This document shows, one piece after another, positions 19,407 to 36,318 of a stretch of DNA of 39,642 bases; the first letter of the stretch is position 1; each line of letters begins with the position of its first letter. The position numbers were made by a program, and so were the translations under genes. The notes under the pieces are model-generated. The model made no database searches, was not told where the DNA came from, and worked only from the letters and a program-made list of their open reading frames with translations. This DNA is from Gemmatimonadota bacterium. Lineage in GTDB: Bacteria; Gemmatimonadota; Gemmatimonadetes; Gemmatimonadales; GWC2-71-9. The stretch lies in contig QHUY01000016.1 in NCBI GenBank assembly GCA_003223415.1, positions 1 to 39,642 of the forward strand. The letters run 5' to 3'.

Positions 19407-19602
19407 TCCGGGTCCTAGGGCAGAAGACGGCTTCCGGACTTCCTGGCGGCAAGAGAGGTTACCGGCCTGGGCCGCAGGGCGGAAGTGGGCGCCAATACTG
19501 GAACAGTCCGGCGCTGACTTCATGCTGTCATGATAATGTCGTTATGCCGGAAATCGTGTTGCGGTCGCGCCGCAAGCACTGCATTCCCGAACGGTTACAC
19601 TA
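19407..19602. other. Intergenic region upstream of the LVIVD pair
   Basis: No gene seen. TATCAT/CATTAT sequences near 19,530 could be the -10 of the minus-strand pair, but no convincing -35 is visible. Confidence 0.35.
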
Positions 19603-21649: not shown

Positions 21650-21657
21650 CGGCCCGA

Positions 21658-21663
21658 AAGCTA
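21658..21663 (-). promoter_or_regulatory. -10-like TAGCTT, leaderless start
   Basis: TAGCTT on the minus strand, eight bases (TCGGGCCG), then the ATG at 21649. It lies in the 53-base divergent gap with the next promoter. Confidence 0.45.
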
Positions 21664-21690
21664 GTCTCCGGCTTCCCCCCCGAACAGGGT

Positions 21691-21696
21691 TAACTT
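21691..21696 (+). promoter_or_regulatory. -10-like TAACTT, leaderless start
   Basis: TAACTT, six bases (CAGGCC), then the ATG at 21703. No Shine-Dalgarno sequence. Confidence 0.5.
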
Positions 21697-21702
21697 CAGG
21701 CC

Positions 21703-22572
21703 ATGCCGCTCGTTCGCGTCGGGATCGGCGTTGTCGTGGCCTACCTGTTGCTGGTCCTACTCGCCTGGGTTTTCCAGGAACGCGTCGCGTTCCCCGCTCC
21801 CCGCGGCGCACCACCCGACCCAAAACGGGTCGGCTTCGCCGCCGGCGAGCGGATCGAGCTGGTCACAGCCGAGCGGACGAAACTAGTGGGGTGGTATCTG
21901 CCGCCCCGCACGCCACCCGTTGGCCCGGCGCGCTTCCCCGGCCTGCTTTGGTTCTACGGCAACGGCGAAACCATCGCCGCGATCTGGCCGGTGCTGCGGG
22001 ACTTTCAGCCGCCCACCGCGGCGCTGCTGGTGGTGGACTATCCCGGCTACGGTGGCAGCGAGGGCCGCCCCACCGAACCGAGGCTGTACGAGGCGGCGGA
22101 CCTCGCATACGCGGCGCTGCGCGGGCGGCCCGGCGTGGACCCGGCCCGAATCTTCATCTACGGTCGCTCGCTTGGTAGCGCCGTGGCCACCCGCACGGCC
22201 GCGACCCACCCCGCTGCCGGCCTGATCCTCGAATCGCCGTTCACCACCGCGGCCGCGATGACCCGCGAGCATTACGCCCTGCTGCCGCGGTTCATCCTCC
22301 GGCTCCGACTGGACAACCTGGACACCATCCGGCAGGTGCACTGCCCGGTGCTGGTCTTCCACGGCACCGACGATCGCCTGGTGCCCAGCGCGATGGGCAT
22401 GCAGGTCGCGGCTGCCGCCCCGGGGCCCACCGAGGTAGTCCTCATCCAGGGCGCCGGGCACAACGATACGTACGATCGGGGGGACGCGAGCTACCGGAAT
22501 AAGCTGGCGGAGTTCGTGGGAGGCGTGCGCGGTGAGCGGTACGCGGTGCGCCAACACCGCACGCCGGGTTAG
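21703..22572 (+). CDS. Alpha/beta hydrolase, membrane-anchored (ABHD13/BEM46-like)
   Basis: 289 residues. An N-terminal membrane helix (about 5-24) followed by an alpha/beta hydrolase fold: oxyanion-type GLLWFYGNGET, nucleophile S156 in GRSLGS, acid D223/D224 in HGTDDRLVP and H253 in GAGHND. This order and the YGNGE and GRSLGS motifs fit the BEM46/ABHD13 group of serine hydrolases or acyl thioesterase-like enzymes; substrate unknown. Divergent from the ADP-ribosylglycohydrolase across 53 bases. The stop is interlocked with the convergent gene (TTAG). Confidence 0.85.
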   Translation: MPLVRVGIGVVVAYLLLVLLAWVFQERVAFPAPRGAPPDPKRVGFAAGERIELVTAERTKLVGWYLPPRTPPVGPARFPGLLWFYGNGETIAAIWPVLRDFQPPTAALLVVDYPGYGGSEGRPTEPRLYEAADLAYAALRGRPGVDPARIFIYGRSLGSAVATRTAATHPAAGLILESPFTTAAAMTREHYALLPRFILRLRLDNLDTIRQVHCPVLVFHGTDDRLVPSAMGMQVAAAAPGPTEVVLIQGAGHNDTYDRGDASYRNKLAEFVGGVRGERYAVRQHRTPG

Positions 22573-23411
22573 ATCACCGTCACCGGCTTAAGCCGGTCGC
22601 GCTCGGCCTCGAAGCGCCGCTCGGCCTCATCGAGGGTGCGCCGCACCTCCGGGGCGTCGGGATCGGGGAACTTGGAGCTCGAGGCCACCCGCCCGGTGAG
22701 CCGTCGGACCGCGATCAGGGCGCGCGTCACCTCGCAGCGGTCCAGGTCGGGATCAGTATGGCCGGTCACCAGCAGCTCCTCGAACAACGGCAGGGCTGCC
22801 GCATCTCCCAGCACGAGCAGCGATTCGAGGATCTTGGGGCCGAGGAAGCGGCGCCGCAGCTGATCGCGGCGGATGCGCTCGAACACGTCGATCAAATCGG
22901 CGGTGCGGCCGGGGTAGTAGCGGGCCGCTTCAACGGCTGCCGCGACGAAGGCGTGGTGCGCCTCGGGCCGGCGCAGATACTTCGCGAACAGGCCCCACGC
23001 CCCGGGCGGATGCCGTTCGGCCAGCGCCAGGAACGCGAAGTAGCGCCGGCCCAGCGGCGCGCTGGTGTCGGCGATGACCGTGCGCAGCCCGGCCACGCCC
23101 CAGCGCGCGCCCACCAGCGCGGCGGCGGCGGCGTGCTGCCAGCGCTCGAGCTCCGGCACGCGGAACGTGACCACGTGTGAGTCGACGAACGCACGGCAGC
23201 GCTCCAGCACCGCGAGCAGGCGCTGATCCACTTCGGCGAGCACCGGCTCGAGCGCCTCGGTGTTGGCCCGGCGGGCCAGGGCGAGCGCCTCCCAGCCCAG
23301 CTGCTGCAAGTCCTGCGCGATCCATTCGGCTTCGAACGCCGCCGCGTCCCGCGCGGCGAGCAGCCGCTCGAGGGCCGCTGAAAAGCCGCAGAGTCGCCAC
23401 CGCGCTTCCAT
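22569..23411 (-). CDS. Unknown helical-repeat-like protein
   Basis: 280 residues, starting MEARWRLCGFSAALERLLAA; rich in Ala, Leu and Arg and helical throughout (WQHAAAAALVGARWGVAGLR, FLGPKILESLLVLGDAAALP, RALIAVRRLTGRVASSSKF). The pattern recalls HEAT-like helical repeats, but no repeat profile is clear enough to name. No signal peptide. The ATG at 23411 follows TATGTT by six bases. Its end overlaps the hydrolase gene end to end. Function unknown. Confidence 0.68.
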   Translation of the reverse strand: MEARWRLCGFSAALERLLAARDAAAFEAEWIAQDLQQLGWEALALARRANTEALEPVLAEVDQRLLAVLERCRAFVDSHVVTFRVPELERWQHAAAAALVGARWGVAGLRTVIADTSAPLGRRYFAFLALAERHPPGAWGLFAKYLRRPEAHHAFVAAAVEAARYYPGRTADLIDVFERIRRDQLRRRFLGPKILESLLVLGDAAALPLFEELLVTGHTDPDLDRCEVTRALIAVRRLTGRVASSSKFPDPDAPEVRRTLDEAERRFEAERDRLKPVTVI

Positions 23412-23417
23412 GACGCC

Positions 23418-23423
23418 AACATA
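23418..23423 (-). promoter_or_regulatory. -10-like TATGTT, leaderless start
   Basis: TATGTT on the minus strand, six bases (GGCGTC), then the ATG at 23411. Confidence 0.5.
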
Positions 23424-23467
23424 CCCCGCGCGCGCCGGGTCGGAAGAGGCGCTCGCCCGCGGCGCCG

Positions 23468-23511
23468 TTGTCCACACGGTCTGGAAAAGCCGGTGCAAAA
23501 CCCGTGGATAA
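23468..23511. promoter_or_regulatory. Two DnaA-box-like sites in opposite orientation
   Basis: TTGTCCACA (23,468-23,476) and, on the minus strand, TTATCCACG (23,511-23,503). Each differs by one base from TTATCCACA. They lie upstream of the binding-protein/chemoreceptor pair. Chance occurrence is possible. Confidence 0.3.
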
Positions 23512-23619
23512 ATGCTTGCCACGACGTTGCGCTCCGCCCGGTCGCCGCTTAACCTTGCCGCGCGACCGCAACCCGGCGTTTCCGTTCACGTTTCCACCTA
23601 GCAGGAAGGGGGGGGAGTT

Positions 23620-24726
23620 CTGCGGAGATTCGCGTTCCTGTGCGCCACCTTGGTCGTCGCGGCCTGCGCCGGCGCCGGCCGCCCGATCCTGATCGGCGTG
23701 TCGGGGCCGTTCTCCCAGCCGCGGGGCGTCTCGATGCGGCACGCCGCGCAGCTGGCGGCCGACGAAATCAACGCGGCAGGCGGGATCCGCGGCCGCCGGC
23801 TCCAGCTGGTGTTCGCCGACGACAGCGGCAGTGAAGACCTGGCGGTCCGAATCGCCAAGTCCTTCTCCGACAGCGCGGCGATGGTCGCCGTCGTGGGCCA
23901 TCTCTCGTCCAACACCACGCTCGCCGCCGGCCGGGTCTACGGCGCCGGCGCGAATCCCCTCCTCTTGATCAGTCCATCGGCTTCGAGCCCCGACTTGACC
24001 GGCTTCAGCCCGTACGTGTACCGGGTGACGCCGAACGACCTGAACCAGGGCCGTCAGATCGCGCGCTTCGCGCGCCGTGCCCTGGGGGCGCGACGGGCCG
24101 GCGTGATCTTCATCAACAACGAATACGGCCGGGGCCTGCGGCGGGCGTTCGCCACGGAGTTCTCCGGGCTCGGGGGCGGGGTCTTGGAGGAAGACCCGTA
24201 TCTGCCGGCCACGCCGTCGCTCGAGCCGTACCTGTCACGCATGCGCCAACGCGGCGGGGTGGACGTCCTCATGCTGGCTTGCGAGCGCCCCGGTGCTGAG
24301 CTCGCGCTCCGCGAGGTCCGCCAGCTCGGCCTGCGCTGGCCGGTGATCGGCGGCGACGCGTTGACCGGCATCGAGGGCCCGCTCGCCGAAGGCGTACGCT
24401 TTTCGTCGACCTACCTGCCACAGCAGCCGGGCGATCGCAACGCCCGGTTCGTCGCCGCGTACGCGCGGGCGTTCCACGGGGAGCGGCCCGATCATCGCGG
24501 CGCCGGCGCGTACGACATCCTCCGGCTCCTGGCGCAGGCGATCGGCGAGGTGGGGCCCGGTCGCCGGGCGATCCGGGACTACATCGCTCAGGTGGGCACG
24601 ACCAAGCCCGCGTTCGAGGGCGTGACGGGCATGATTGCCTTCGACACGAATGGAGATGTGCCGGCCAAGCCGGTCGTCATCGGCGTGATCCGGCAGGGGC
24701 TGCTGGAACCGGAGTCCGTCCGATGA
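23620..24726 (+). CDS. Branched-chain-type substrate-binding lipoprotein
   Basis: 368 residues from the proposed CTG start. The N-terminus ([18 protein letters not shown]) is a lipoprotein signal with lipobox VAAC. A type I periplasmic binding protein of the LivJ group follows: [94 protein letters not shown] and [11 protein letters not shown]. Such proteins bind amino acids, amides or aromatic acids. The frame opens after a TAG at 23,599 and offers only CTG 23620 before TTG 23650, which would remove the signal; G8 lies just upstream as a Shine-Dalgarno substitute. Overlaps the chemoreceptor gene by ATGA, and no permease or ATPase gene is near. Confidence 0.85.
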
Positions 24727-26423
24727 GAGGAGGAGCCTTGGAGACGCTGCGCTGGCGCATTCTCCTGGGCTTCAGCGGGGTGCTGGCCGGACTGGTCGTG
24801 GCGGCGATCATCGGGGCCGCGGCGTTGCGGGCCATGCGGACGGCGGTGGCGCAGGAGCTCCAGGCGCTGCAGGCCGCCAGCCTCGTCGGCAGCGGGCTCG
24901 TGAGCACGGTGTTCGATGAGATCCGGGCCGCCGAGCAGTATCTCAGCCAGCCGTCGGATGACCCGCGCCGGGAATTCCAGCTCGCGGCCGACGAGGGGTT
25001 TCGCTACGAGAAGGCGCTGGAGCAACTCGAGGGGCTCTCCCTCGAGGACCGCCTGACGGTCAACCGCATCAAAGGGCTCCAGGCCTCGATCCAGGTCGAC
25101 TATTCCGTCGCGCACGCGCTCAAGGATCTGGGCCGCGATCGCGAGGCGCTGGGCCGGTCGGAGGCCGTGCGCGACCAGGCGCGCGATCTCACCAGACTGG
25201 TTCGCGATCTCTCCGCGCGCCAGGCGCAGCGGGCGGGCCAGGCAGGCAACCGGCTCGAAGGTCTGGCGGCGCGCCGCCAGCTCTTTCTGTGGGTGGTGCT
25301 CGCCGTCACCATCGCCGGCGGCCTGCTGATCTCCTGGTTCACCCTCCAGGCCGTCGAGTTACCGCTCGGCCGGCTGGTGACGGCGGCGGAGCGGTTCGGC
25401 GCCGGCGATCTGCGGCCGGTGACCACGGGCCGGATGCCGCGCGAGTTTCAGGTCCTGGCCGACGCGATGCGCGTGATGGGCGAGCGGCTCCGCGGGATCG
25501 TGGGCGAAGTGATCGGCGAGTCGGACCGCATCGCCGGCTCGGCGGGCGACCTGTCGGCGGTGAGCGAGCAGCTCGCCGCCTCGAGCGCCGAGGTGTCGAC
25601 CGCCATGGTGGAGATGTCGGGCGGCGCCGAGGAGCAGCGCAACGAGCTGAACGCGATGGGGACCGGCCTGGAGCGGCTCCAGAAGGCGGCCGCCGAGATG
25701 GCGGAGGCCACCGGGCGCGTGGCACAGCTGGGCGAGGAGATCCGCACCGTGGCCGACCGGCACCGGGGGGACGTGCTGGCGGCCGGGAGCGCACTGCTCT
25801 CCGTGCGTGAGGTGGTGCAGACGACGTCGTCGCAGGTGCAGCAGCTGGCGCAGCAGAGCGCGGCGATCGACGATTTCGTGGAGCTGATCAAGCGGATCTC
25901 CTCCCAGACAAACCTGTTGGCGCTGAACGCGGCGATCGAGGCCGCCCGGGCCGGCGAGCACGGGAAGGGATTTGCGGTGGTGGCCGAGGAAGTGCGCCAG
26001 CTGGCCGACGAGTCCGCCAAGGCGGCGGCGGACGTGGCGGCGACGACCGCGGTGATCCGTACCCAGGTGGAGGACGTCACGGCGACGATGGCAGCGGGCC
26101 AGGCGAAGGTTCGGGGGGTGGAGTCGGTGGCTGAGGGGGCGGCGCGCGGGCTGGCGGAGATCGTGGCGGCGATCGAGCAGGTGGAGCAGGCGGCGGCGCG
26201 GGTGACGGTGGCGGCGCAGCAGAACCGGGAGGTGGCGCAACAGCTGGGGGAGAAGGCGCAGCAGGTGGGCGGGCGGGCCGTGAGCCACGCGGCGAGCGCC
26301 GAAGAGGTCACGGCGGCGGCCGAGGAGCAGGGGGCCTCCACCCAGGAGATGGCCGCCGCAGCCGGCGCCCTGCTGCAGGCGGCTGAGAGGCTACGCTCAT
26401 TGGTGAAGGAGTTTCGGGTCTAG
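24723..26423 (+). CDS. Methyl-accepting chemotaxis protein
   Basis: 566 residues. Membrane helix 1 at about 12-33, a periplasmic four-helix-type domain of about 150 residues, membrane helix 2 at about 187-211, a HAMP domain ([20 protein letters not shown] onward) and a long signalling coiled coil. The hairpin tip, [20 protein letters not shown] and [17 protein letters not shown], is at about 390-430 and should contact CheA/CheW. Overlap with the binding-protein gene (ATGA) suggests that this lipoprotein is its ligand partner. A TTG at 24738 with GGAGG upstream is an alternative start. No che genes in the window. The stop is interlocked with the next gene (CTAG). Confidence 0.93.
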
Positions 26424-26734
26424 CGACGGGCCTTCTTTTTCTTCGGCTTTGCCTTTGCCTTGGCGCCGCGCCCCCCCCCCCCTTTGCGCTTTGCCTTCAA
26501 CGCGACTTGGACATCCGCCAACACCCGGTCCCCTTCGTCAGGGCCGATCAGGCCCCGGCGGACCGCGTACCGCACCAGCTCCTCGGCGTCCTCGGCCGCG
26601 AAGTCGCCGATGCCCGCCGCGGCGCGGATCGCTTTGACGAGCGCGTCCGCGACCGGGCTTCGGAGGACGCTGGCGATTCCGGGGAGAGCCTCGAGCAGCG
26701 AGGAGAGTTGCGACCCGCCGAGCTCGGCTGGCAT
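26420..26734 (-). CDS. Small protein with Lys-rich tail, unknown
   Basis: 104 residues. An acidic/helical front part ([59 protein letters not shown]) and a basic tail [20 protein letters not shown] that could bind nucleic acid or the membrane. C12 in the plus strand encodes the glycine run. Tail-to-tail with the chemoreceptor gene, sharing CTAG. No Shine-Dalgarno sequence is obvious. Function unknown. Confidence 0.6.
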
Positions 26735-26805
26735 CGGAAGCGCTGCTCCGGCGTTGAAGGTGGCGCCAAGCTACTACCCACCCCCCGGGACCGTCAAGAA
26801 TTCCG

Positions 26806-27948
26806 CTACCGCTGATAGCGCACCCACAGCGTGCAGCCCGTGCCCGTCAGGTCGGCGAAGCCCCGACCGCGGGCATAGACCCACCCCGTGTCCAGCCGGC
26901 CCGACAGGCTCGCGGAGAGCCGGTCGTTGATGCCATAGTGGGCCGCCAAGCCCGCCGAATAGAGGCGACCGCCGCGATAGTCAGCCGGGGTCCACTGCCG
27001 GAATCCCACCATCGGCTCCAGCTGCAGCCGCGCCGCCACCCGATGCGCGAACCGGAGCTCGGCGTTGAGCACGTTCTCCTTCGTCTCCGGACTCGACGCG
27101 CTGTTGGTGTCGCCGGCCAGCCGGTAGAAGTCCCAGGCGGCGAGCGTCAGCGTCGAGCTGCCGATCACCCGGAGGTACGCCACGTCGCTGATGAACCGCA
27201 CCCCCGGCCTGTAGGTGCCGCTCGTGATCGTGCCGGTGCCCGTGAACACGTCGGACGAAAAGGTGCTGGTCGTCAGACCGAGCAGCAGCCGCGCCGAGGG
27301 GCCGAGCAGCCGGTCGGCCCCGGCGCGGATGCGCAGTTCCACGCCCGGGTTGTAGGTGACCGGCTGATCGCTGAAGGGCGAGTAGGAGCCCAGGAATCGC
27401 AGGCTGCCCGAGAAGCCGAGGTTCCAGCTCCCCGCCTGCTGCGCGTAGGCGAGTCCGCCGGTCACACCGAAGGCCGTGCCGAAGCTGGACACCGGGAAGG
27501 AGAGGTAGTTCGAGCCGACGGCCCCGCTCACCTGAAACTGGCTGGTCGAGACCGAGCGCTGACCGGTCGGCAGATTGAACGACAGCGAGGCCACCGCCCG
27601 GTCGCGCCGCAGCGTGTACAGCAGGCGGAGCTGGGTGTCCGTCAACCCAGTGAGGGTTTCCGTCCTGCCGGCGTACGTCTCGACGCGGCCGCTCACCAGG
27701 TAACCCGTCATGTCCACGGAGACGCTGCGCCCCACAGGCGTCACGAGCACGAGCGGCAGGTTCCACTGCGACACGGACTTGACCGAGAGTCCCGGATCGA
27801 AATGGTAGCCGCGGTACTCCCATCCCGAGAGCGCGTTGAAGCGGTCGTACAACGCGTCGCTCCCTCCGCCCCCCCCGCCCCCCTGGGCGCTGAGCTGCAG
27901 CGGGGCGACGACGGCGAGGGTGCCGACGAAGGCGGGGACGAGGCGCAC
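26806..27948 (-). CDS. Outer-membrane beta-barrel protein
   Basis: 380 residues from the proposed GTG. Signal peptide MRLVPAFVGTLAVVAPLQLSAQ, then a glycine run and about 12-14 amphipathic strands (for example WEYRGYHFDPGLSVKSVSQW, VDMTGYLVSGRVETYAGRT, AVASLSFNLPTGQRSVSTSQ, RLSASLSGRLDTGWVYARG). It is probably a porin-like barrel. The stop of the CsgG-like gene is 11 bases upstream, so the two form an operon. The GTG start gives a clean signal peptide; a longer frame reaches 28,029 but overlaps the previous gene. Confidence 0.75.
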   Translation of the reverse strand: MRLVPAFVGTLAVVAPLQLSAQGGGGGGGSDALYDRFNALSGWEYRGYHFDPGLSVKSVSQWNLPLVLVTPVGRSVSVDMTGYLVSGRVETYAGRTETLTGLTDTQLRLLYTLRRDRAVASLSFNLPTGQRSVSTSQFQVSGAVGSNYLSFPVSSFGTAFGVTGGLAYAQQAGSWNLGFSGSLRFLGSYSPFSDQPVTYNPGVELRIRAGADRLLGPSARLLLGLTTSTFSSDVFTGTGTITSGTYRPGVRFISDVAYLRVIGSSTLTLAAWDFYRLAGDTNSASSPETKENVLNAELRFAHRVAARLQLEPMVGFRQWTPADYRGGRLYSAGLAAHYGINDRLSASLSGRLDTGWVYARGRGFADLTGTGCTLWVRYQR

Positions 27949-27958
27949 GCTGCGGGTC

Positions 27959-29347
27959 CTATGGCCGGCGGATGATGATGATGATCGTGCCGACCAGCGC
28001 CGCCCGGGCGGGCCCGTCGCAACTTGCACCCTCGCAGATGCGGTTGGGATCGGTCGGCGGCAGTTGAATCCCTCCGCTCGTCGGGGTCGCGGTCACGTTC
28101 GCCGCCCCTGACGGGACCGCGTTGTTGATCGCGTTCGTCAGCGTTCCTTGATTGGGAGAGGGCGGTGCCTCGCCGCCCTCCCCCCCCCCAGCCCCGCCGA
28201 CCGTCGCGGCCACCTCCGTGGGCGGCGTCGCGGTGGCGGTCTGCGCCGCCTGGCTCGTCTGCGCGCCCTGTGCGGCGGCGGAGAAGCCGGGATCGCGCTG
28301 CGCGGCGGCCTGGAAGGCCTGGGCGGCCGCCGCGAAGTCGCCGCGGTCCTGCGCCTCGAGGCCGCGACTGTAGAGGAGGAACGCCTGAATGTCGCGCGTC
28401 GGGCGCTCGCTGATGGCGGTGCGCTCACCCGGCGTCAGCGTGATGGCCAGCTTGTCGAGCAGCTGGAAGACGACCGCCTTCTCGATGTCGAACAGCGCGC
28501 GCAGCTGGTCGGACCCGGAGCCGGTCGCGGCGATCTGCGCGTCGCTGGCGCGCACGACCGACGCATCCACGCGGAAGTTCGCCCCCGCCACCTCGGAGAA
28601 CTGCCCTTCCACCACCTGGCTCGCGCCCACGAGCCGCCCGGAGCGGGCGCCGGTCGCGGGATCGACCCGGCCGCTCGCCGCCAGCTGCAGCTCGTCGAGC
28701 AGCGCCTGCAGCCGCTCGCGCTCGACCAGACGTAACCGCCGCACCCGCGACAAGTCGGTGACGACGAGGGCCGCGAGTCCGCGCTCCAGGGGCCGCAGCG
28801 AGCTGTCGGCGCCGGTGTAGCGAAACGGCATAACCGCGATCGTGTTCGGGTCGGGAGGCGTGCGCACCAGTAGCGACTCGCGGGCGATCGCGAGCCGCGC
28901 GCGTTGCTGCAACTCCTTGCGGGTCAGCAGCGCGAGGCGGCCGTCCAGCAGGCGACGCACCGGCCGGCCAGGGGGGGGCTGGGCGAACAGCAGCCTGGTG
29001 TAGACCGCCCGGGCGGAGTCGTACTGCTCGAGCCCTTCGTACGTGAGGCCCAGATAGGCGCGCGCCGACGCGTTGCCGGGCTGGGCGACCAGCACGATCT
29101 GGAGCGCGCGACGGGCGTCCGCGTACCGCTGGGCGGCGTAGTAGGCCCGGGCAAGCCGGAGATTGACGTCGGGGTCGGTGGGATGCTGGGAACGCTGCGT
29201 CTCGAGAGCGCTCTGGTCCGCCGGCGAGACCGTGGCGGGTCTCCCCCCCCCTCCACCCCCGGCGCGGCCGGCGCAGGCAGTGGCGATGAAGGCGCAGGCC
29301 ACCGCGAGGCGGCGTGCGCCGGAGCCGGGGCCGGTTGAGACCGTCAT
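27959..29347 (-). CDS. CsgG/TolB-N-like lipoprotein with TPR region
   Basis: 462 residues. Lipoprotein signal with lipobox ATAC (C25), a glycine run, a TPR part (LETQRSQHPTDPDVNLRLAR, ADARRALQIVLVAQPGNASA), then a CsgG-like domain: IAVMPFRYTGADSSLRPLER, GLAALVVTDLSRVRRLRLVE and VGASQVVEGQFSEVAGANFR. It ends with a Thr/Ala-rich linker, two cysteines (ICEGASC) and a tail ALVGTIIIIIRRP, where five Ile codons are a microsatellite. CsgG proteins form outer-membrane export pores, but many relatives are of unknown function, so the role here is unproved. The ATG at 29347 has AAGG upstream. Followed by a beta-barrel gene, 11 bases away. Confidence 0.75.
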   Translation of the reverse strand: MTVSTGPGSGARRLAVACAFIATACAGRAGGGGGGRPATVSPADQSALETQRSQHPTDPDVNLRLARAYYAAQRYADARRALQIVLVAQPGNASARAYLGLTYEGLEQYDSARAVYTRLLFAQPPPGRPVRRLLDGRLALLTRKELQQRARLAIARESLLVRTPPDPNTIAVMPFRYTGADSSLRPLERGLAALVVTDLSRVRRLRLVERERLQALLDELQLAASGRVDPATGARSGRLVGASQVVEGQFSEVAGANFRVDASVVRASDAQIAATGSGSDQLRALFDIEKAVVFQLLDKLAITLTPGERTAISERPTRDIQAFLLYSRGLEAQDRGDFAAAAQAFQAAAQRDPGFSAAAQGAQTSQAAQTATATPPTEVAATVGGAGGGEGGEAPPSPNQGTLTNAINNAVPSGAANVTATPTSGGIQLPPTDPNRICEGASCDGPARAALVGTIIIIIRRP

Positions 29348-29418
29348 CGAGCGCCTTCTGGTGGGATCAGGGGAAAGGATGGAGCTGACGCGGGGCCGAG
29401 CGCCGTGACAAGCAGCGG

Positions 29419-29682
29419 TCACGACCGGTGAGCACGGTCACGACGGGCCCGCAGCGCGGTGAGCGGCGCCGCCGGCGCTCGCCGGGAGATCGTCAGCTCG
29501 GCGTGCGAGAGCAACTCGCCTAGGACGGTCCGCGTGCGCGCGTCGAGCGGCAGCTCGAAGTGCAAGTCGAGCCGATACTCGGCCTGGTCGGGTCCCTGCC
29601 CCGTCAGAGTGAATCCCTGGTGCTCGGGCTTGACCTGGTCGACTTCGATCTCGGCGAGGCGCTGGAAGTCCGGGCCGTCCAT
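29419..29682 (-). CDS. Small protein, unknown
   Basis: 87 residues starting [20 protein letters not shown]; predicted beta-rich ([20 protein letters not shown]) with a basic tail. No signal peptide. The ATG at 29682 has an excellent GGAGG five bases upstream. It lies about 70 bases upstream of the CsgG-like gene on the same strand. Function unknown. Confidence 0.65.
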
Positions 29683-29779
29683 GGCAACCTCCGGTTGGAG
29701 CTAGAGATACGTCCCGGCCAGGGGCTGTCAAGGCGAGCAGGGGCGGGCTAGATTTCGAGGTTGGAGGTGCACGCCACAG

Positions 29780-30046
29780 GTGGGGCGACGCGGCATTAAG
29801 GAATACCGGGCGCCGGAGGCGCTCGCGCTCATCGCGGCCGACCGGGAGCACACACCCCTGGTCTGCCCGTCCTGCGGAGGCCGCAAGATTCTGCGGGTGC
29901 CGCGTCGACGCATTTCACAGCCCGACGTCGCGCCGACGACCGAGCGGATCAGTCTCACCTGTCAGACCTGCGGTCGGCACGCCTCCTACACCGAGCGGGG
30001 CGCCGAGCCACCGCGCGACTCGACGATGGACCCCCGCACGGCGTAG
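29780..30046 (+). CDS. Zinc-ribbon protein next to infA
   Basis: 88 residues. Two CxxC pairs (CPSCGG at about 29-34 and CQTCGR at about 60-65) suggest one zinc ribbon. An N-terminal basic region and a Pro/Arg-rich end frame it. It sits 22 bases upstream of infA on the same strand, so co-transcription is likely, but a translation role is only inferred. GTG start at 29780; GGAGG is about 11 bases upstream. Confidence 0.7.
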
Positions 30047-30068
30047 CGGAAAGGAGCCGTTTCAGAGA

Positions 30069-30284
30069 GTGGCCGGCGACGCGATCCAAATGATGGGAAC
30101 GGTGACGGAAGTCCTCCCCAACACGACCTTTCGGGTGAAGCTGGAGAACGGGCACGAGGTGCTGGCGTACGTGAGCGGCAAGATGCGGAAGAACTACATC
30201 CGCATTCTCCAGGGCGACCGGGTGGCCGTGGACCTGTCGCCGTACGACCTGACGCGTGGGCGGATTACATACAGATACAAATAA
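30069..30284 (+). CDS. infA: Translation initiation factor IF-1
   Basis: 71 residues, the usual length, a single OB fold: [40 protein letters not shown] and [15 protein letters not shown] are the conserved blocks. IF-1 binds the A site of the 30S subunit and helps IF-2 and IF-3. GTG start (VAGDAI...); AGGAG lies about 13 bases upstream. No ribosomal protein operon follows, which is unusual for infA. Confidence 0.97.
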
Positions 30285-30343
30285 AAGAGACGTCGAACGA
30301 AAGCGTCAAACGAAGACATGAGTGCAGCGTAGAGGCGTCGCGG

Positions 30344-30814
30344 TCAGTTGCCGGAATGTGGCCCCGTTTCCCCACGCAAGTACTTGATGACCCCCTGCAC
30401 CATCAGGTCCACTCCACCGTAGCCCGCGTGGTACTGGTAGACGAAGTGGTTGCTGCTGCAGTCGTGCAGGCTCAACTCGTCCCACGAGACGAGCACAACG
30501 CCGTCGACCGGAGCCGGTGCCGCCGCCGCGGTGTCGGCAGATGCCGGGCCACAGATCGCGCGCAGGGCTTCCGCTTGGGTATCCCAGGTGCCCGGGCGCT
30601 GGACGATGGCCCATCCTTGGGCGGCCAGCCGTTTCCGAACGTCCAGCGTGATGCGGAGATCCGATTGCTCGTCTGTCGTCGAGATGACACTGAGCGATTT
30701 GAACCTGGTACCGGCCACGGTCTCGCTGAACATCTCATTGTGCTTGCGGTAGGAGTGGAAGCAGCCGGCGATCGCGAGCGCCAGCGAGGCGGCGATACCC
30801 AAACATCGGTTCAT
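30344..30814 (-). CDS. Small lipoprotein, unknown
   Basis: 156 residues. Lipoprotein signal MNRCLGIAASLALAIAGC with lipobox AIAGC. The mature part has VAGTRFKSLSVISTTDEQSD, VVLVSWDELSLHDCSSNHF and GGVDLMVQGVIKYLRG. I do not recognise the family. Its ATG overlaps the stop of the beta-barrel gene by ATGA, so the two are co-translated. Confidence 0.72.
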   Translation of the reverse strand: MNRCLGIAASLALAIAGCFHSYRKHNEMFSETVAGTRFKSLSVISTTDEQSDLRITLDVRKRLAAQGWAIVQRPGTWDTQAEALRAICGPASADTAAAAPAPVDGVVLVSWDELSLHDCSSNHFVYQYHAGYGGVDLMVQGVIKYLRGETGPHSGN

Positions 30815-31452
30815 TCGAAGGCCACGGGGATGGCGAGCCCCCAGGACCAGACGACGTCCTGGTGCCACCGCCGCCGACCGGTCCCGCTGGGCTCGGCGCC
30901 GGAGTTGGTCCATGATGAGTAGCTCGCGACCTCGACAGTGAACGACGGAGAGTTCTTGAGTGCCAGGCGGCCCCCGGCCGCGAGCAGCAGAGCCGGCCTG
31001 GTGTCGCCAGCGCCGCTGCCCCGGGCGGCCCCGCCGCGATGAATCAAACCGACGCCGGGGCCGCCGTAGAGGCTCCAGCCCTCGGTGGGCCGGCGGAGGC
31101 CGAACGTGGTGCGCAGGCTGGCTAGCACGACGCCCGAGGTGGCATCCTGGGTCCGCTGCGAGTCGGTGATGGCCACCATGCTCGGTGCATAGATGGCGGC
31201 GCCCTCAACGGCGAGGTACTTCGCGGCCCACAACGTGGCCCCGATGCCGAGCGTCGGGGACATGAGCTGGCGCCGACGCACGACCTGGCCGGAGGACGGT
31301 TCGTAGGTGGCGAGCAGCACGCCGGGAGAGAAGTAGATCCCCAGGCGCGGATGCAGCTCAAAGCGGCCCTGCGCGGTCGCGCGGCTCGCCCCCAGGCTCA
31401 AGGCGCAGCCGAGCGCCAGCGTAGCGAAGCGGGAATGCCGCAGCCGTCCCAT
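30811..31452 (-). CDS. Outer-membrane beta-barrel protein (small)
   Basis: 213 residues. Signal peptide MGRLRHSRFATLALGCALSL with cleavage after ATAQ. The rest is an 8- or 10-stranded barrel pattern: LHPRLGIYFSPGVLLATYEP, TLGIGATLWAAKYLAVEGA, GVVLASLRTTFGLRR, WSLYGGPGVGLIHRG, ALLLAAGGRLALKNSPSFTV. The ATG at 31452 has AGGAGG nearby; the longer open frame starts at 31,470. Followed by a lipoprotein overlapping by ATGA. Confidence 0.75.
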   Translation of the reverse strand: MGRLRHSRFATLALGCALSLGASRATAQGRFELHPRLGIYFSPGVLLATYEPSSGQVVRRRQLMSPTLGIGATLWAAKYLAVEGAAIYAPSMVAITDSQRTQDATSGVVLASLRTTFGLRRPTEGWSLYGGPGVGLIHRGGAARGSGAGDTRPALLLAAGGRLALKNSPSFTVEVASYSSWTNSGAEPSGTGRRRWHQDVVWSWGLAIPVAFE

Positions 31453-31477
31453 CCTCCCTCCTGGCCCCACAAGACGC

Positions 31478-31514
31478 GGAGCGCACCGCGCGTCCCTGCT
31501 GCGCGGTGCGCTCC
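31478..31514 (-). terminator. 14-bp hairpin between the porin-cytochrome and the next barrel gene
   Basis: GGAGCGCACCGCGC and GCGCGGTGCGCTCC form a perfect 14-bp stem around a 9-base loop. It follows the stop of the Cyc2-like gene; no T tract. A TATAAC sequence (about 31,520) just before it could start a transcript that includes the hairpin. Confidence 0.6.
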
Positions 31515-31544
31515 GGATGTTATAACGCGCTCGGCCCGATTCGG

Positions 31545-32900
31545 CTAGAACAGGTAGTCGATGCCGAGGCTCCAGCTCTTCCCCATGAGCGGCGCTTGGT
31601 CGAGCCGCAGCGTGGTGGTGTTCGAGTACTGCAGCGACGTGATGATGTTCATTTGCGGCTGGAACACGAAATACGCGGTGTAGGCCGTATGGGCCGGAAT
31701 GTCGTGCTTCAGGCCGGTACGATCGGTGAAATTGTAGGTGGTATTCTTCCCAACCTGCAAGTCCAGCCCGTACGTCCGATCATACACGTACCGCACCCGT
31801 CCGAAGAAGCTGCTCAGCTTGGTCTTGCCGTTGTCCGCATACGTCTCGGAGTTGACGTTGTAGCCCAGTCCCGTCTCGATGCTGTGCGGGCCCCGGTCTA
31901 TGAACCCGTAGCGCAGCTCGCCACTGACCCGGTTGAAGTCCCCAAGGTCCTTGGAGACGTAACTGGCGGCCGCGGTTCTCGTAGCCGACACGCCCGTCAC
32001 CCCGTCCGTATAGACCCAATGCGGAGCGGTGTTGGCGGCGGTCGAGATGTTGGTATTGGTCAAGAGCGGGATGTCGTCGTTCCCGGCCTTCCACTCGACG
32101 TTGACGGACATCTCGCGCGCGTCGGAGTTGAAGATCCAGTAGGCGGCCTGGCCCAGGTAATTCATGCGGGCCCAGTCGAGGTTATCCTGGCCCGGGCTGG
32201 CGCCCACCGAGACGAACACGCGGTCCTTGAACCAGCCATACGCGAAGAACTGGCCCTTGTTGGGGTGGTTCCAGCCATTGAGGCCGCCGCGGTTGAGCTG
32301 CGAGCCGCCCGGCGCCCACGGCCCGAACCCGGACACCTCCGCGATCCCCTGGTTGCTGAACGCCAGGCCCAGGGTCTTGGTCGCATCCGTCTTCACGAAC
32401 CGCAGGTCGTACTCGTCGAAGGTGAACATCCCCAGACCCCACTCACCCGTGGCCTGGCCGTTGGGCGGGACGAGGTACATCTCCGTCCAGAGGCCGAAGT
32501 TGTCACCGAATGCGCCACCGGTGAAGAGCGCGAGGCGCGAGGTGGGGTTGGAGATGATGGGATTCCAGGTCGTGGCACCCGGGGTTCTGCTGCGCGACGC
32601 GAACACGCTCTGGTAGCGCAGCGTGAGGTACGGGAAGGACGACAGCGCGAGGCGCTTGCCACTGATGGCGCCGACTTCACCGGCTTCGATGCGCTCGCTG
32701 ATCCAGGGCATCCGGTAGCCGTTCATCCGGAACTTCTTGCCCGTGAACGTGAAATTCGGCACCGGGGCGCCGAACAGCACGTGGCATTGCGCGCACGTCA
32801 AGCCGGTCTGGCGAGTGAACAGGGGGACCGTGGTCGAGCCGTGCCCTCCGCCCACCCCAGCGGTCCCGACGACCGCGAGTGCTGCAAAGAGCCCTACCAT
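31545..32900 (-). CDS. Cyc2-like fused monohaem cytochrome-porin
   Basis: 451 residues. After a short hydrophobic N-terminus come VPLFTRQTGLTCAQCH with the c-type haem motif CAQCH at 36-40, and FTGKKFRMNGYRMP. This matches the Cyc2 signature (F-x-RQTG-x2-CxxCH followed by F-K-x2-GY). The remaining 380 residues are a beta-barrel of about 16 strands (LTLRYQSVFASRSR, GLWTEMYLVPPNGQATGEWG, MSVNVEWKAGNDDIPLLT, VSGELRYGFIDRG, SWSLGIDYLF with terminal Phe). Cyc2 proteins oxidise Fe(II) at the outer membrane in known iron oxidisers, but relatives of unknown role exist. ATG at 32900 with AAGGAGG. The signal region lacks a positive charge, which is odd. Confidence 0.82.
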   Translation of the reverse strand: MVGLFAALAVVGTAGVGGGHGSTTVPLFTRQTGLTCAQCHVLFGAPVPNFTFTGKKFRMNGYRMPWISERIEAGEVGAISGKRLALSSFPYLTLRYQSVFASRSRTPGATTWNPIISNPTSRLALFTGGAFGDNFGLWTEMYLVPPNGQATGEWGLGMFTFDEYDLRFVKTDATKTLGLAFSNQGIAEVSGFGPWAPGGSQLNRGGLNGWNHPNKGQFFAYGWFKDRVFVSVGASPGQDNLDWARMNYLGQAAYWIFNSDAREMSVNVEWKAGNDDIPLLTNTNISTAANTAPHWVYTDGVTGVSATRTAAASYVSKDLGDFNRVSGELRYGFIDRGPHSIETGLGYNVNSETYADNGKTKLSSFFGRVRYVYDRTYGLDLQVGKNTTYNFTDRTGLKHDIPAHTAYTAYFVFQPQMNIITSLQYSNTTTLRLDQAPLMGKSWSLGIDYLF

Positions 32901-32955
32901 GGTGATGCCTCCTTAGAAAAAAAGACGAGGGATTCAGGCGTTCGCTTTCTCCCTC

Positions 32956-33354
32956 TCACGACCCGTGCACTTTGGCATCTTCTTGCGCGATGTAGTGCAG
33001 CAGCGCATCCACCTCCTTATCGCTCAGGTGCAGGTTGGGCATCTTGGTGTTGTTGAATTGGGCGAGCAGGGCTTGGGCGGTGGAGTCACTCGCGAGCATC
33101 TGATCCGGGGTTTTCAGCCAGCGCCGCAGCCATTCCTTGCTGCGACGCTGGAAGACGCCGGCCAGATCCGGCCCGGCCAACTTCCCCTTCCCAACCGAGT
33201 GACACCCGAGGCAGCCCTTCTGGACGAACAGATTCGCGCCTTGTTTGGCGAGAGCCGGGTCTGCTGTCATTCCCCCGCCCTGCGCCTGCAACGACGTGGC
33301 CAGCGCGAGCGCCACTCCCACCGCCACTCCGATCGCCACATCTCGTGCAGCCAT
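32956..33354 (-). CDS. Periplasmic monohaem cytochrome c
   Basis: 132 residues. Signal peptide MAARDVAIGVAVGVALALAT with cleavage near LQAQ. Class I cytochrome c: CLGCH at 48-52 (haem attachment) and the axial Met in TKMPNL (M105). It follows a strong GGGAGGG and is the first gene of the unit with the Cyc2-like gene, 55 bases away, so it could carry electrons from that protein through the periplasm. Confidence 0.92.
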   Translation of the reverse strand: MAARDVAIGVAVGVALALATSLQAQGGGMTADPALAKQGANLFVQKGCLGCHSVGKGKLAGPDLAGVFQRRSKEWLRRWLKTPDQMLASDSTAQALLAQFNNTKMPNLHLSDKEVDALLHYIAQEDAKVHGS

Positions 33355-33412
33355 AGGGGACCCTCCCGTGGGTCAGAGACGCTTGCGGCAGCGGTTCAAT
33401 CTGATACTTTGT

Positions 33413-33441
33413 GTCTAATGCTCTTTTAGGACGGTTGTCAA
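33413..33441 (-). promoter_or_regulatory. Promoter of the cytochrome unit
   Basis: TTGACA (33,441-33,436) on the minus strand, with a weak TTAGAC/TAGACA 17-18 bases downstream. On the plus strand the same place reads TTGTCA with TATGTG 16 bases on, so the YceI-like gene may share it. Confidence 0.4.
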
Positions 33442-33478
33442 GTCCTCGTCCCCTGATATGTGACGTTTCATACTAGAA

Positions 33479-34225
33479 ATGACGCGGCATACCGTAGCCG
33501 GACTGCTCGCCTTGGTCTGCACGGCAGGGCTGGGCGCCCAAGCGGCCGGACACCGTTGGATCGTCGACCCTCGCACCAGCTTGGTCTGGTGGCAGGTTGA
33601 CCCCCATTACAATCACCTGTGGTCCACCACCTGCCCGAACGACCCCTCCTGGCAGCCCGGCGAGGGGCGCGACGCCGGCTGGCAGGTGAACTACAAGACC
33701 CGGCCGGTGCTCCGCGACGCCGGTGTCAGCGACCCCCGCGTGCCGCTGTTCCCGCGACTCGCGGTGCACCCAGTCTGCCGCCAAGCCGTCCACGGCGAGA
33801 TGGTCGCGGGCGACGACCGTTGGAGGGGCACCCACGGGACGGTCGTCATCCTGGCGGACTCATTCGAGACGGGCCTGCGCTTGCGCAATTCCTTCGCCAG
33901 CGATCACGTGATCGAAACATCGAAGTACCCCAGCATCGAATTCACTCTCGACAGCTTGACGAACCTACAGCCTGGCGACACCATCCGGGCGATCGCCGTC
34001 GGCACATTCAGCCTGCACGGGGTTCGCACGTCCCAACGGGTGCCGGTGGTCGCCTGGCGGGAGCCGACCGGGCTCCGCGTGCAGGGGCGCTTCGCGATGG
34101 ACGCACAGGACCTCGTGAATACCTACGGGATGTCTCGGTGGGCGTTGGGGCTGGGCGTGGTGATGCACCGCTGGAAGGTGGTCTACCTGGGACTGGATCT
34201 CGTAGTACGGGAAGCCGGCAGCTGA
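33479..34225 (+). CDS. YceI-like secreted protein
   Basis: 248 residues. Signal peptide MTRHTVAGLLALVCTAGLGA. A lipocalin-like YceI pattern follows: HRWIVDPRTSLVWWQVDP, VIETSKYPSIEFTLDSLTNL, IRAIAVGTFSLHGVRTSQRV and GLRVQGRFAMDAQDLVNTYG. YceI proteins bind long isoprenoid lipids such as ubiquinone in the periplasm. It is longer than typical YceI (about 190) because of an insert of about 60 residues with three cysteines (TTCPNDPSW, HPVCRQ). Divergent from the cytochrome unit, so a redox link is plausible. A weak CATACT lies four bases before the ATG. Confidence 0.75.
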   Translation: MTRHTVAGLLALVCTAGLGAQAAGHRWIVDPRTSLVWWQVDPHYNHLWSTTCPNDPSWQPGEGRDAGWQVNYKTRPVLRDAGVSDPRVPLFPRLAVHPVCRQAVHGEMVAGDDRWRGTHGTVVILADSFETGLRLRNSFASDHVIETSKYPSIEFTLDSLTNLQPGDTIRAIAVGTFSLHGVRTSQRVPVVAWREPTGLRVQGRFAMDAQDLVNTYGMSRWALGLGVVMHRWKVVYLGLDLVVREAGS

Positions 34226-34232
34226 GCTGATA

Positions 34233-35660
34233 CTACCGTTCCGCCGCGACTGACAGGCCGAGGTAGACGCTGCGTCCGGGGGACGGCTCGTAATAACGGC
34301 TCCGGGCGGCGTTGATCGTCACCGACCCGACGTATAACCGGTTGAACAGGTTGTAGACCCCGAGGAACGGGGTCGCTCGCACACTCCCGACCGCCCCTTC
34401 CCATCCCAGCCGCAGGTTGGTCGCCCACCAGGGCGAGGTGCGCGTGCTGAGCGTGTCGTCCACGGGGTAGGACGAGGAATACGTCGTCTCCACCTCCGCC
34501 CACCCACCCCGCGCGAACGATGGACTGACCCGCAGCATGACGTGCCCCCACGACGGCGGCACCCCCGGCAGCGCGCGGCCGTCGAGGACGAACGTGCGCA
34601 CCGTGTCGGGACTGAACCGGTAACGCACGTAACGGAAATGGGAATACGTGTAGCTGCCCCCCAGGCTCACTCCGGGCCGCAGGGCCAGCTCCGTCCCCAG
34701 CTCCACGCCGAGGTGCCGCGAGCTGCCGGCGTTGCGGAAAAAGCGCCGCTGTGGAGAGCTCGGCACCTCGTAGGAAATCAGCTCGTCGCGGACATCGGCC
34801 CGGAACAGCGCCGCCGTCCAGGTCAGGCGCCGGCCGCCGCCCGGGGTACCACGCACGCCGACCTCGTAGTTCACCGCTTGCTGGGGCTTGAGGGCGGGGT
34901 TGAAGCCTCCCGCCGTGTCCGGCCGGTTGGCCTGCTCGGTGGTCGTGGGAGTCTCGAACGACGATCCGAGGTTGGCGTAGACAGTCACCGCGTCGGCCGC
35001 ATTCACCGTGAGACCGAGGGAGCCGCTCAGCGCCGCCATGAGCCGCCGGCCGGAGTCGTCCGGGTTGGTGGCCGTGATCAGACGATCGTGCACCCCGAAA
35101 CTCACCCGGTCGTAGCGCAGGCCCGCCGTCACCGTGGTGCGTGTCGACAGGTCGAGCGCGCTCTGCAGGAACGGCCCCACCTCGGTCACGTGCTCGAGCT
35201 GGTCGAGCTGGCGGGAGGTATCCGGCTGGGATCCGGTGCGATAGTCGAAGTTCACCCGGTCATCACGCTGCCGCTGGAAGTCGAGCCCGACGGTGAGCAG
35301 CTGGGGAAGCGCGCCCAGATGCGCCGGGCGCGAGAGCGTGAACCGTCCCCCGTAGGCCACGCGGTCGAGATCGATGTATGCGAACGTCTGCGGGTTCTTG
35401 AGGCTCCGGGTGATCCCGAAGACCGTGGCCGCGACTTCGCCGCCGTCCGCCAGCTGGCGTTGCAGCGTGAGCCCGCCCTGCGCCTGGGTGACGTCCTTGC
35501 CGGCGTCGCGCTGGAGGTTGACGGCCGCCGCGGAGTCGCGGTTGGCGCGCAGCTCGTCGAGCGTGAGGGCACCGGGGTTGTCCGCGCGGGGATCATCGCC
35601 CACGTCCGCGAGGGCCGTCAATCTCCAGCCGCGGCCCCCCCCCCCCCCCCCCCCCGGCAT
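34233..35660 (-). CDS. TonB-dependent receptor, C-terminal half (frame-shifted)
   Basis: 475 residues, the barrel part of an outer-membrane TonB-dependent receptor: GWRLTALADVGDDPRADNPG, TVTAGLRYDRVSFGVHDRLI, TVYANLGSSFETPTTTEQAN (the typical S-x-F-E-x-P element), GFNPALKPQQAVNYEVGVRG and AVGSVRATPFLGVYNLFNRL. It is in a different frame from the plug half and has no start codon or Shine-Dalgarno sequence of its own; the first Met lies inside the G tract. A gene of 20 or 23 G would be read through as one protein of about 694 residues. Ends YLGLSVAAER, not the usual terminal Phe. Confidence 0.85.
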   Translation of the reverse strand: MPGGGGGGGRGWRLTALADVGDDPRADNPGALTLDELRANRDSAAAVNLQRDAGKDVTQAQGGLTLQRQLADGGEVAATVFGITRSLKNPQTFAYIDLDRVAYGGRFTLSRPAHLGALPQLLTVGLDFQRQRDDRVNFDYRTGSQPDTSRQLDQLEHVTEVGPFLQSALDLSTRTTVTAGLRYDRVSFGVHDRLITATNPDDSGRRLMAALSGSLGLTVNAADAVTVYANLGSSFETPTTTEQANRPDTAGGFNPALKPQQAVNYEVGVRGTPGGGRRLTWTAALFRADVRDELISYEVPSSPQRRFFRNAGSSRHLGVELGTELALRPGVSLGGSYTYSHFRYVRYRFSPDTVRTFVLDGRALPGVPPSWGHVMLRVSPSFARGGWAEVETTYSSSYPVDDTLSTRTSPWWATNLRLGWEGAVGSVRATPFLGVYNLFNRLYVGSVTINAARSRYYEPSPGRSVYLGLSVAAER

Positions 35661-36318
35661 GGTCGCGCTCGCCCTCGTAGCCGAGCCGGGAGACCGTGAG
35701 CTGGGCGCTGCCGGCGCCGAGGCGGAGCAGGCTGCTCGACTGCCACTTGCTCCAGGTCCGGCTGTGGTCGCGCTCCGAGCGGCCGCCGACGATTCGGAGT
35801 TCCTCGCTCATCCGCTGCGGCACGGCGGGATCGGTCCAGATACTGATGACCCCACCCGACGCGTTGCCGAACAACGCTGAGGAGGAGCCCCGCAGCACCT
35901 CGATGCGGTCGACCGCGCCGAGCTCCACGTTCGTGAGCTGCCCCTGGCCGTCGGGCAGGGTCTGGGGGATCCCGTCCAGCAGCACCTTGATGCCACGCAC
36001 GGCGAACGCTGCTCGGCTCCCGAAGCCGCGGATGGAGAGCCGCTGATCGAGGGAGAAGTTGTAGCGGTTGGCCGCGTAGACCCCCGGCACCGCGGCGAGC
36101 GCTTCGTCCAGGCCCCAGGTGGGCCGCGCGCGGCTGATCTGCGCGCGCTCCACCAGCTGGACGGCGAGCGGGATCTTGGTGAGCGGGAGGGGCGCGCGGG
36201 TGACCGAGACCGTGATAGGGAGGAGCGTCACCCGCGGCGTGGAATCCGGCCGCTGCGCGCTCAGCGCCAGCGGCAGCCAGAGGCTGGCCGCCAGACCGAG
36301 CCTGCGCCACGCCCGCAT
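35593..36318 (-). CDS. TonB-dependent receptor, N-terminal plug half (frame-shifted)
   Basis: 241 residues before the shifted stop. Signal peptide MRAWRRLGLAASLWLPLALS, then the plug domain: LPITVSVTRAPLPLTKIPL (TonB box region), TWGLDEALAAVPGVYAANRY, RLSIRGFGSRAAFAVRGIKV, LLDGIPQTLPDGQGQLTNVE and IEVLRGSSSALFGNASGGVI. These are the standard plug motifs for uptake of siderophores, vitamins or sugars. It ends in seven glycines from the G21 tract followed by shifted sequence. ATG at 36318, AGGA upstream, 16 bases after lepB. Confidence 0.88.
   Translation of the reverse strand: MRAWRRLGLAASLWLPLALSAQRPDSTPRVTLLPITVSVTRAPLPLTKIPLAVQLVERAQISRARPTWGLDEALAAVPGVYAANRYNFSLDQRLSIRGFGSRAAFAVRGIKVLLDGIPQTLPDGQGQLTNVELGAVDRIEVLRGSSSALFGNASGGVISIWTDPAVPQRMSEELRIVGGRSERDHSRTWSKWQSSSLLRLGAGSAQLTVSRLGYEGERDHAGGGGGGGPRLEIDGPRGRGR
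35635..35655 (-). repeat. G21 homopolymer in the TonB receptor gene
   Basis: Twenty-one C on the plus strand, that is G21 in the coding strand, at the junction of plug and barrel. The two halves join in frame only if the tract has 3n+2 G (17, 20, 23). The count here is 21, so the gene is out of frame in this sequence. Assembly or sequencing error cannot be excluded. Confidence 0.85.

Follow-up and report, generated by a model that had tools for sequence, protein, structure and literature searches.

The genes at the locus and their recurrence

The window analysed here, a stretch of 39,642 nucleotides from a Gemmatimonadota bacterium of the family GWC2-71-9 (contig QHUY01000016.1 of assembly GCA_003223415.1), carries a gene for a divergent cytochrome-porin candidate related to Cyc2, which we call Cyc2L, along with genes for a small cytochrome c and an unusual YceI-like lipocalin. 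It is contig 37 of a genome of 3.53 Mb that is 97.5% complete. Open reading frames and Pfam matches place these three genes where an earlier note on this DNA had put them, the CLGCH cytochrome lying upstream of Cyc2L on the same strand and the YceI-like gene being divergent. The features concerned are the following.

31545..32900, minus strand: Cyc2L, divergent Cyc2-related monohaem cytochrome-porin candidate, 451 aa (sequence, profiles, tree)
32715..32825, minus strand: conserved haem region P26-Y62 of Cyc2L, PLFTRQTGLTCAQCH-VLFGAPV-PNFTFTGKKFRMNGY, as compared with PMC8406198
32781-32795, minus strand: CXXCH of Cyc2L, part of the haem region
32956..33354, minus strand: class-I monohaem cytochrome c, 132 aa (Pfam PF00034, alignment, PDB match 2l4d)
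33479..34225, plus strand: YceI-like lipocalin variant with an N-terminal insert, 248 aa (Pfam PF04264 on residues 104-211)
33632..33634, plus strand: Cys52 of the YceI-like variant, in the motif SLAWWQ.PH..HLWATTC
33776..33778, plus strand: Cys100 of the YceI-like variant, which may form a disulfide with Cys52

Cyc2L holds a single N-terminal haem site in a Cyc2 context (VPLFTRQTGLTC-AQCH), and its sequence carries FTRQTGLTCAQCH and then, as had been noted before, FTGKKFRMNGY. The earlier note had also proposed conservation of the haem motif as a check, and here the motif proved constant: all relatives with an intact N-terminus show [VM]PxFxRQTG[LM]TCxQCH, a spacer of 6-7 residues and P[ND]FTFTGxKFR[ML]NG[YF]R. 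The cytochrome c gene lies 55 bases upstream of the Cyc2L gene, whose ATG is preceded by a strong ribosome-binding site (AAGGAGG). Its product matches Pfam Cytochrom_C with an E value of 1.9e-11 (score 45.6 against a cut-off of 21.3), which places it in class I, and has one haem site, Cys48-Leu-Gly-Cys-His52, with Met105 as the likely further ligand; both the CXXCH and Met105 are invariant in the cytochrome c alignment (A4).

A search with Cyc2L gave matches in 49 of the 295 genomes of the class, nearly all of them over the first ~150 residues only. In a profile search of 395 genomes of the phylum at a cut-off of E<=1e-15, true Cyc2L was found in five, namely that of the window (G000), G330, G030, G313 and G140, all from a single, densely sampled family (5 of its 102 genomes) and from four genera. 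Identity to the window protein is 56.5% in G330, 37% in G030 and 35-38% for the C-terminal fragments from G140 and G313, where contig ends break the gene and at least two copies of it are present. Viral contigs held no relative of Cyc2L, and plasmids held only distant Cyc2-like proteins.

In all five genomes, Cyc2L belongs to or lies near a recurring module. Besides the YceI-like lipocalin, this comprises a monohaem cytochrome c, a small lipoprotein and, in most cases, a putative outer-membrane protein of 215 residues. In the window and in G330 the YceI-like gene is divergent from the order cytochrome c, Cyc2L, lipoprotein, the outer-membrane protein being absent from that place in G330. In G030, two cytochromes c, Cyc2L, an outer-membrane protein and two lipoproteins stand opposite two YceI-like genes; G313 has the same set beside two YceI genes, in two incomplete copies. 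In G140, one contig holds a cytochrome c and the start of Cyc2L, while another holds the end of Cyc2L, lipoproteins, the outer-membrane protein and a TonB receptor. What is more, cytochrome-c maturation genes (CcmA, B, C, E and F, named by sequence resemblance) adjoin module genes in G030, G313 and G140, and are accompanied, where seen, by a CcmG-like thioredoxin and CcmH.

The locus is more than a chance arrangement, because the haem motif and the gene set recur in four other genomes and because a separately binned contig, VBAL01000226.1, is collinear with the window over 27083-32028 at 99.2-99.5% identity. This contig, the sole match in a search of genome contigs, belongs to a metagenome-assembled genome named ANGP1 (Terrabacteria group), its identity to the window being about 99.4% overall. 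It is most likely misbinned from the species of the window, since synteny with G330 places the window in the present family: over 20705-30284 the genes stand in the same order as in G330, with protein identities of 61-99% (36% for the lipoprotein that follows), apart from two extra window genes at 26806-29422.

The YceI-like lipocalin variant

The YceI-like protein matches Pfam YceI with an E value of 7e-7 (30.1 bits against a cut-off of 23.7), the match covering residues 104-211 only, that is, positions 29-127 of the 150 in the profile. This second half also weakly matches PDB structures of YceI proteins; a prediction for the protein alone with AlphaFold2 gave a predicted local distance difference test score (pLDDT) of 36. 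The first strands usual for YceI and BcnA lipocalins (E. coli 1y0g and Saccharophagus X158 2x32; PMC9113575) are replaced by a conserved stretch, SLAWWQ.PH..HLWATTC, with an insert ending in a second cysteine. In other words, the insert does add cysteines, as had been suggested: Cys52 and Cys100 both lie in the extra N-terminal stretch and are invariant in all copies covering them, among 13 copies examined (13 of 13 for Cys100).

Strong matches to this variant (E<=1e-25) were confined to the five genomes that hold Cyc2L, out of 395 in the phylum and 102 in the family, or, counted by genus, to 4 of 138; a further 25 family genomes have only ordinary YceI proteins, matching the second half. The co-occurrence is thus exact in both directions among the 395 genomes, the relatedness of the carriers lowering the number of independent cases. 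Plasmids gave no match to the variant. A search of the literature found no paper linking YceI to Cyc2, and the association of Cyc2L with the lipocalin is the novel part of the finding.

Known YceI proteins bind prenyl ligands, ubiquinone-8 among them, and act together with cytochrome b561 (PMC9113575), and a YceI domain can be fused to c-type cytochromes (PMC8981238). For these reasons, a role of the variant as a redox or ligand carrier beside the haem-porin is a reasonable one to propose, and the earlier idea that it may bind a quinone fits known YceI biology. A close parallel is Cbp2D of Cellvibrio (PMC8981238), where a YceI-like domain (X158) likewise goes with monohaem cytochromes in what is thought to be an extracytoplasmic electron carrier; Cbp2D, however, unites its domains in a single secreted protein that also has a cellulose-binding module, whereas the module studied here consists of separate genes with a Cyc2-type haem-porin candidate. 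One may go further and suppose a new path across the envelope, with Cyc2L as an outer-membrane haem-porin whose obligate redox partner is the cysteine-bearing lipocalin, loaded with a quinone or another redox ligand. This has not been described for any Cyc2 system, and we regard it as doubtful.

Could the lipocalin instead be the main actor, scavenging lipid radicals in the envelope through a bound quinol that the cytochrome pair recycles, with electron transfer at the outer membrane being incidental? Scavenging by quinol has been proposed for BcnA/LcoA, BcnA together with cytochrome b561 limits lipid peroxidation, and YceI binds ubiquinone-8 (PMC9113575); the confinement of the variant and Cyc2L to exactly the same genomes would also follow. 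That said, the partner here is not cytochrome b561, as it is for YceI and BcnA, but a pair of c-type cytochromes with a Cyc2-type haem domain, and extra YceI copies sit away from Cyc2L, and so we consider a defence against oxidative stress quite improbable as the primary function.

Cyc2L as a candidate electron conduit

Cyc2, as defined by Keffer and colleagues, has AXPXFAR[Q/K][T/Y] before CXXCH, PXL four residues after it, a length of 365 residues or more and a barrel of 16 strands (PMC8406198). Like the members of that family (clusters 1-3; PMC8406198, PMC7029218), Cyc2L is predicted to be exported, has one N-terminal CXXCH after PXFXR[QK][TY], followed by an FxxNGY-like stretch, ends in an aromatic residue and adjoins a c-type cytochrome gene. 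In particular, the upstream motif reads PLFTRQT-GLT-CAQCH in the window and PSFTRQT, PSFVRQT or PAFVRQT in relatives, with T or V rather than A after the F (ordinary Cyc2-like proteins of the class often have S there), and the length of 451 aa in the window, as well as of 447 and 479 aa in relatives, lies within the definition. In a profile comparison with hhalign, residues 24-187 of Cyc2L aligned with 23 ordinary Cyc2-like proteins of the class, which read PSFSRQTGLACSACHxxFPxLTPFGRxFKLNGYT, at a probability of 98.9%. An early comparison had suggested an end-to-end alignment, which we discarded when splitting the protein left signal in the first ~165 residues only. The proposal that the small cytochrome is a partner gains from the constant presence of this class-I protein as the upstream neighbour. 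Six plasmid-borne, proteobacterial Cyc2-like loci were also inspected, and in five of them the gene immediately after the Cyc2-like one encodes a c-type cytochrome.

As for the rest of the protein, every Cyc2L protein that retains its C-terminus ends on an aromatic residue (YLF, FLF, YMF, YLW or INF). Such a residue is expected of proteins inserted by the beta-barrel assembly (BAM) machinery. No membrane helix or hydrophobic stretch was found in mature Cyc2L, past the signal region. Both observations, along with the short profile match to Cyc2-like proteins, are consistent with a barrel, and the C-terminal part is most likely an outer-membrane beta-barrel plugged by the haem domain.

We give roughly even weight to the view that Cyc2L is a haem-plugged electron conduit in the outer membrane, feeding cytochrome c and ultimately oxygen, because of the conserved haem motif, the recurring module and its co-occurrence with the lipocalin, the nearby Ccm genes, the N-terminal profile match, the aromatic C-termini, the oxidases described below and the cytochrome neighbours on plasmids. 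Namely, an exported Cyc2L would plug its C-terminal outer-membrane barrel with a single haem domain of the Cyc2 kind and would accept electrons from some small, reduced extracellular donor, with dissolved Fe(II) as the first candidate among several possible. The periplasmic cytochrome c encoded beside it would receive them and in turn feed an aa3-type oxidase, so that the electrons end on oxygen. The YceI variant, presumably closed by a disulfide, would work with this pair, most simply by carrying a prenyl ligand such as a quinone, which would exchange electrons with the pair or protect the periplasm. For a heterotroph, the payoff could be extra energy or detoxification. The barrel, the outer-membrane location, the direction of the electrons, the donor, and the ligand and role of the lipocalin are the parts of this scheme that we infer. 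Iron as the main donor is plausible, though we hold it to be less likely than the conduit itself.

Several results weigh against this scheme. Although the haem signature is kept, what follows it differs from PXL: the window reads CH-VLFGAPV-PNF and G030 reads CH-ITFANV-PDF, that is, with an insertion of 3-4 residues before P and with F for L, while some proteobacterial Cyc2-like proteins shift P by 2-3 residues yet retain L. Residues 130-451 of Cyc2L alone matched Cyc2-like proteins at a probability of 1.5%, which does not exceed that of unrelated controls. The barrel of about 380 residues in the earlier note is not confirmed: single-sequence AlphaFold2 gave a pLDDT of 30, too low for a usable model, Cyc2L had no match in Pfam, NCBIfam or PDB, and a scan for strands of alternating hydrophobicity did not tell it from shuffled sequences, a scan that also failed on most ordinary Cyc2-like proteins and did give signal for a TonB receptor and another barrel. 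The signal peptide of the window protein has no positive charge near its start, and Cyc2-like proteins are present in many organisms not known as iron oxidisers (PMC8406198). As to metabolism, the check for terminal oxidases and reverse electron transport had a divided outcome. Namely, the genome has two aa3-type oxidase operons, which could take the electrons, while no cytochrome b of a bc1 complex was detected at E<=0.001 in this 97.5% complete genome, alternative complex III not having been searched for. The single match to the RuBisCO family is a partial gene on a small contig of the same genome (L094 1-1026), whose product reads KDDH in place of the KDDE of catalytic RuBisCO, and no catalytic RuBisCO was found; from its other form-IV features we take it to be probably a form-IV RuBisCO-like protein. 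With no bc1 complex found and only a RuBisCO-like protein, nothing points to autotrophic growth on iron: an outlet to oxygen is present, and carbon fixation or bc1-driven reverse flow has left no sign. The sequence data do not demonstrate the iron oxidation suggested earlier.

Could Cyc2L instead be an ordinary member of one of the three published Cyc2 clusters, oxidising iron as in known iron oxidisers? Its PXFXRQT before a single CXXCH and its length would suggest as much. On the other hand, besides the altered PXL and a similarity confined to the N-terminal third, Cyc2L forms one clade (support 99/99, stem of 2.55 changes per site) outside the ordinary Cyc2-like clade, in a tree of Cyc2-like proteins of the class and six plasmid-borne ones (from Caballeronia, Ideonella, Paraburkholderia, Methylocystis, Polymorphobacter and an A. 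ferrooxidans plasmid) that did not take in references of clusters 1-3. We are unsure of its exact position in this tree, because the branches are long. We hold an ordinary Cyc2 to be very improbable indeed and, judging from the sequence, treat Cyc2L as a divergent Cyc2-related subfamily, not filed as Cyc2, because PXL is replaced, the branch is long and separate and the similarity is limited to the N-terminal third. The signature RQTG-x2-CxxCH, from which Cyc2 had been recognised earlier, is in other words insufficient, even though the N-terminal relation stands. Further differences from the family are FTFTG in place of LTPFG and the linked YceI-like variant. Ordinary Cyc2-like proteins of the same family of bacteria (L005-L031), as well as a 395-aa relative in a bc1 operon, have a haem domain of the Cyc2L kind, yet with LTPFGRxFKLNGYT, and the YceI variant is present in their genomes only if Cyc2L is as well. 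The 395-aa protein (L039 7022-8209), with IPAWARKYNMNCNGCH and set among cytochrome bc1 genes with a cytochrome c, represents a third kind of Cyc2-like protein, and several further genomes of the family give N-terminal matches of comparable length.

With a C-terminal part lacking sequence similarity to its Cyc2-like counterpart, the haem-porin might also oxidise something else, such as an organic radical or phenol, Cu(I) or Mn(II), with the lipocalin binding that hydrophobic substrate. A dedicated lipocalin does not figure in described Cyc2 pathways (the component list in PMC10654088 has no YceI), and the small cytochrome c is closest to a Sco-fused cytochrome, its best PDB match (2l4d, E 6e-24) being to the cytochrome c domain in a fusion with Sco1/SenC. 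On the other side, neither a catalytic domain nor a metal site came to light, nor any direct evidence for such a substrate, which makes this alternative unlikely.

Finally, the direction of electron flow cannot be read from the sequence, and Cyc2L may let cytochrome c pass respiratory electrons to external acceptors such as Fe(III) or humic quinones. Dihaem and octahaem cytochromes, the latter with tetratricopeptide repeats, lie near the module in G140 and G313; an octahaem cytochrome of this type, 56% identical, is encoded on another contig of the window genome (L095 4784-7159), and the octahaem type is also seen on contigs L090 and L035. YceI proteins, moreover, can carry quinones (PMC9113575). 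Against such a reductase path, uptake is the better fit for a conduit that has one haem and a relative of high potential (Cyc2 PV-1, 208 mV; PMC8406198), and both aa3-type oxidases reduce oxygen; we judge electron export possible, if rather unlikely. Returning to electron uptake, a close described layout is the rus operon of Acidithiobacillus (cyc2-cyc1-cup-coxBACD-rus; PMC10654088), which also sets a haem-porin gene beside a periplasmic cytochrome c, with an aa3-type oxidase in the genome; the module differs in that its cluster lacks cox genes, rusticyanin and a dihaem Cyc1, their place being taken by genes for a lipocalin, a lipoprotein and a putative outer-membrane protein of small size.

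Cyc2 is the main gene for recognising bacteria that draw electrons from dissolved iron, and most of its homologues come from organisms that have never been tested. Keeping the haem signature with a different downstream motif and a different-looking C-terminal part, Cyc2L offers a natural test of the predictive value of that signature. The exact co-occurrence with the lipocalin variant points to a specific partner that can be tested, and it suggests that periplasmic companions of other cytochrome-porins may have been missed. If the conduit is real, it could be an added route of extracellular electron uptake in uncultured soil bacteria.

Neighbouring genes and further observations

The remaining features around the three genes are as follows.

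33355..33478, no strand: divergent intergenic region of 124 bp between the cytochrome c and YceI-like genes
30811..31452, minus strand: OMP219, with signal peptide, putative small outer-membrane protein and module accessory (homologues beside Cyc2L in G030, G313 and G140)
30344..30814, minus strand: putative lipoprotein of ~156 aa from MNRCLG..AGC (homologues in all five modules)
34233..36318, minus strand: TonB-dependent receptor adjoining the module, in two frames (Pfam Plug and TonB_dep_Rec)

A promoter scan found no sigma-70 consensus above chance in the 124-bp intergenic region. The OMP219 and lipoprotein genes come after Cyc2L on the same strand; the OMP219 reading frame opens at 31470 with a likely ATG at 31452 (213-219 residues), and the lipoprotein ATG overlaps its stop (ATGA). 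In the other four genomes, a different family of small putative lipoproteins is found close to Cyc2L or to YceI variants (L080 7116-7517, L082 7614-8090, L086 5355-5756 and L061 3413-3922); it has no match in the window.

The TonB receptor beside the G140 Cyc2L gene is 64% identical to that of the window. The window receptor gene contains a run of 21 C at 35635-35655, its halves being in different frames, which may reflect either an assembly slip or a phase-variable receptor. Runs of G or C of at least 8 number 34 in 84.5 kb of the window and the genome's own contigs L088, L089, L091, L094 and L095, versus 11 in 260 kb of relatives; for runs of at least 10, the counts are 11 and 1. Runs of equal lengths are seen in the independent contig VBAL01000226.1, and several lie in coding sequence, for example GGGGGG in a deacetylase gene at 11585-12292. 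Elsewhere in the window, 15399-17372 and 17382-19523 encode two tandem paralogues with immunoglobulin-like and LVIVD-type repeat parts.

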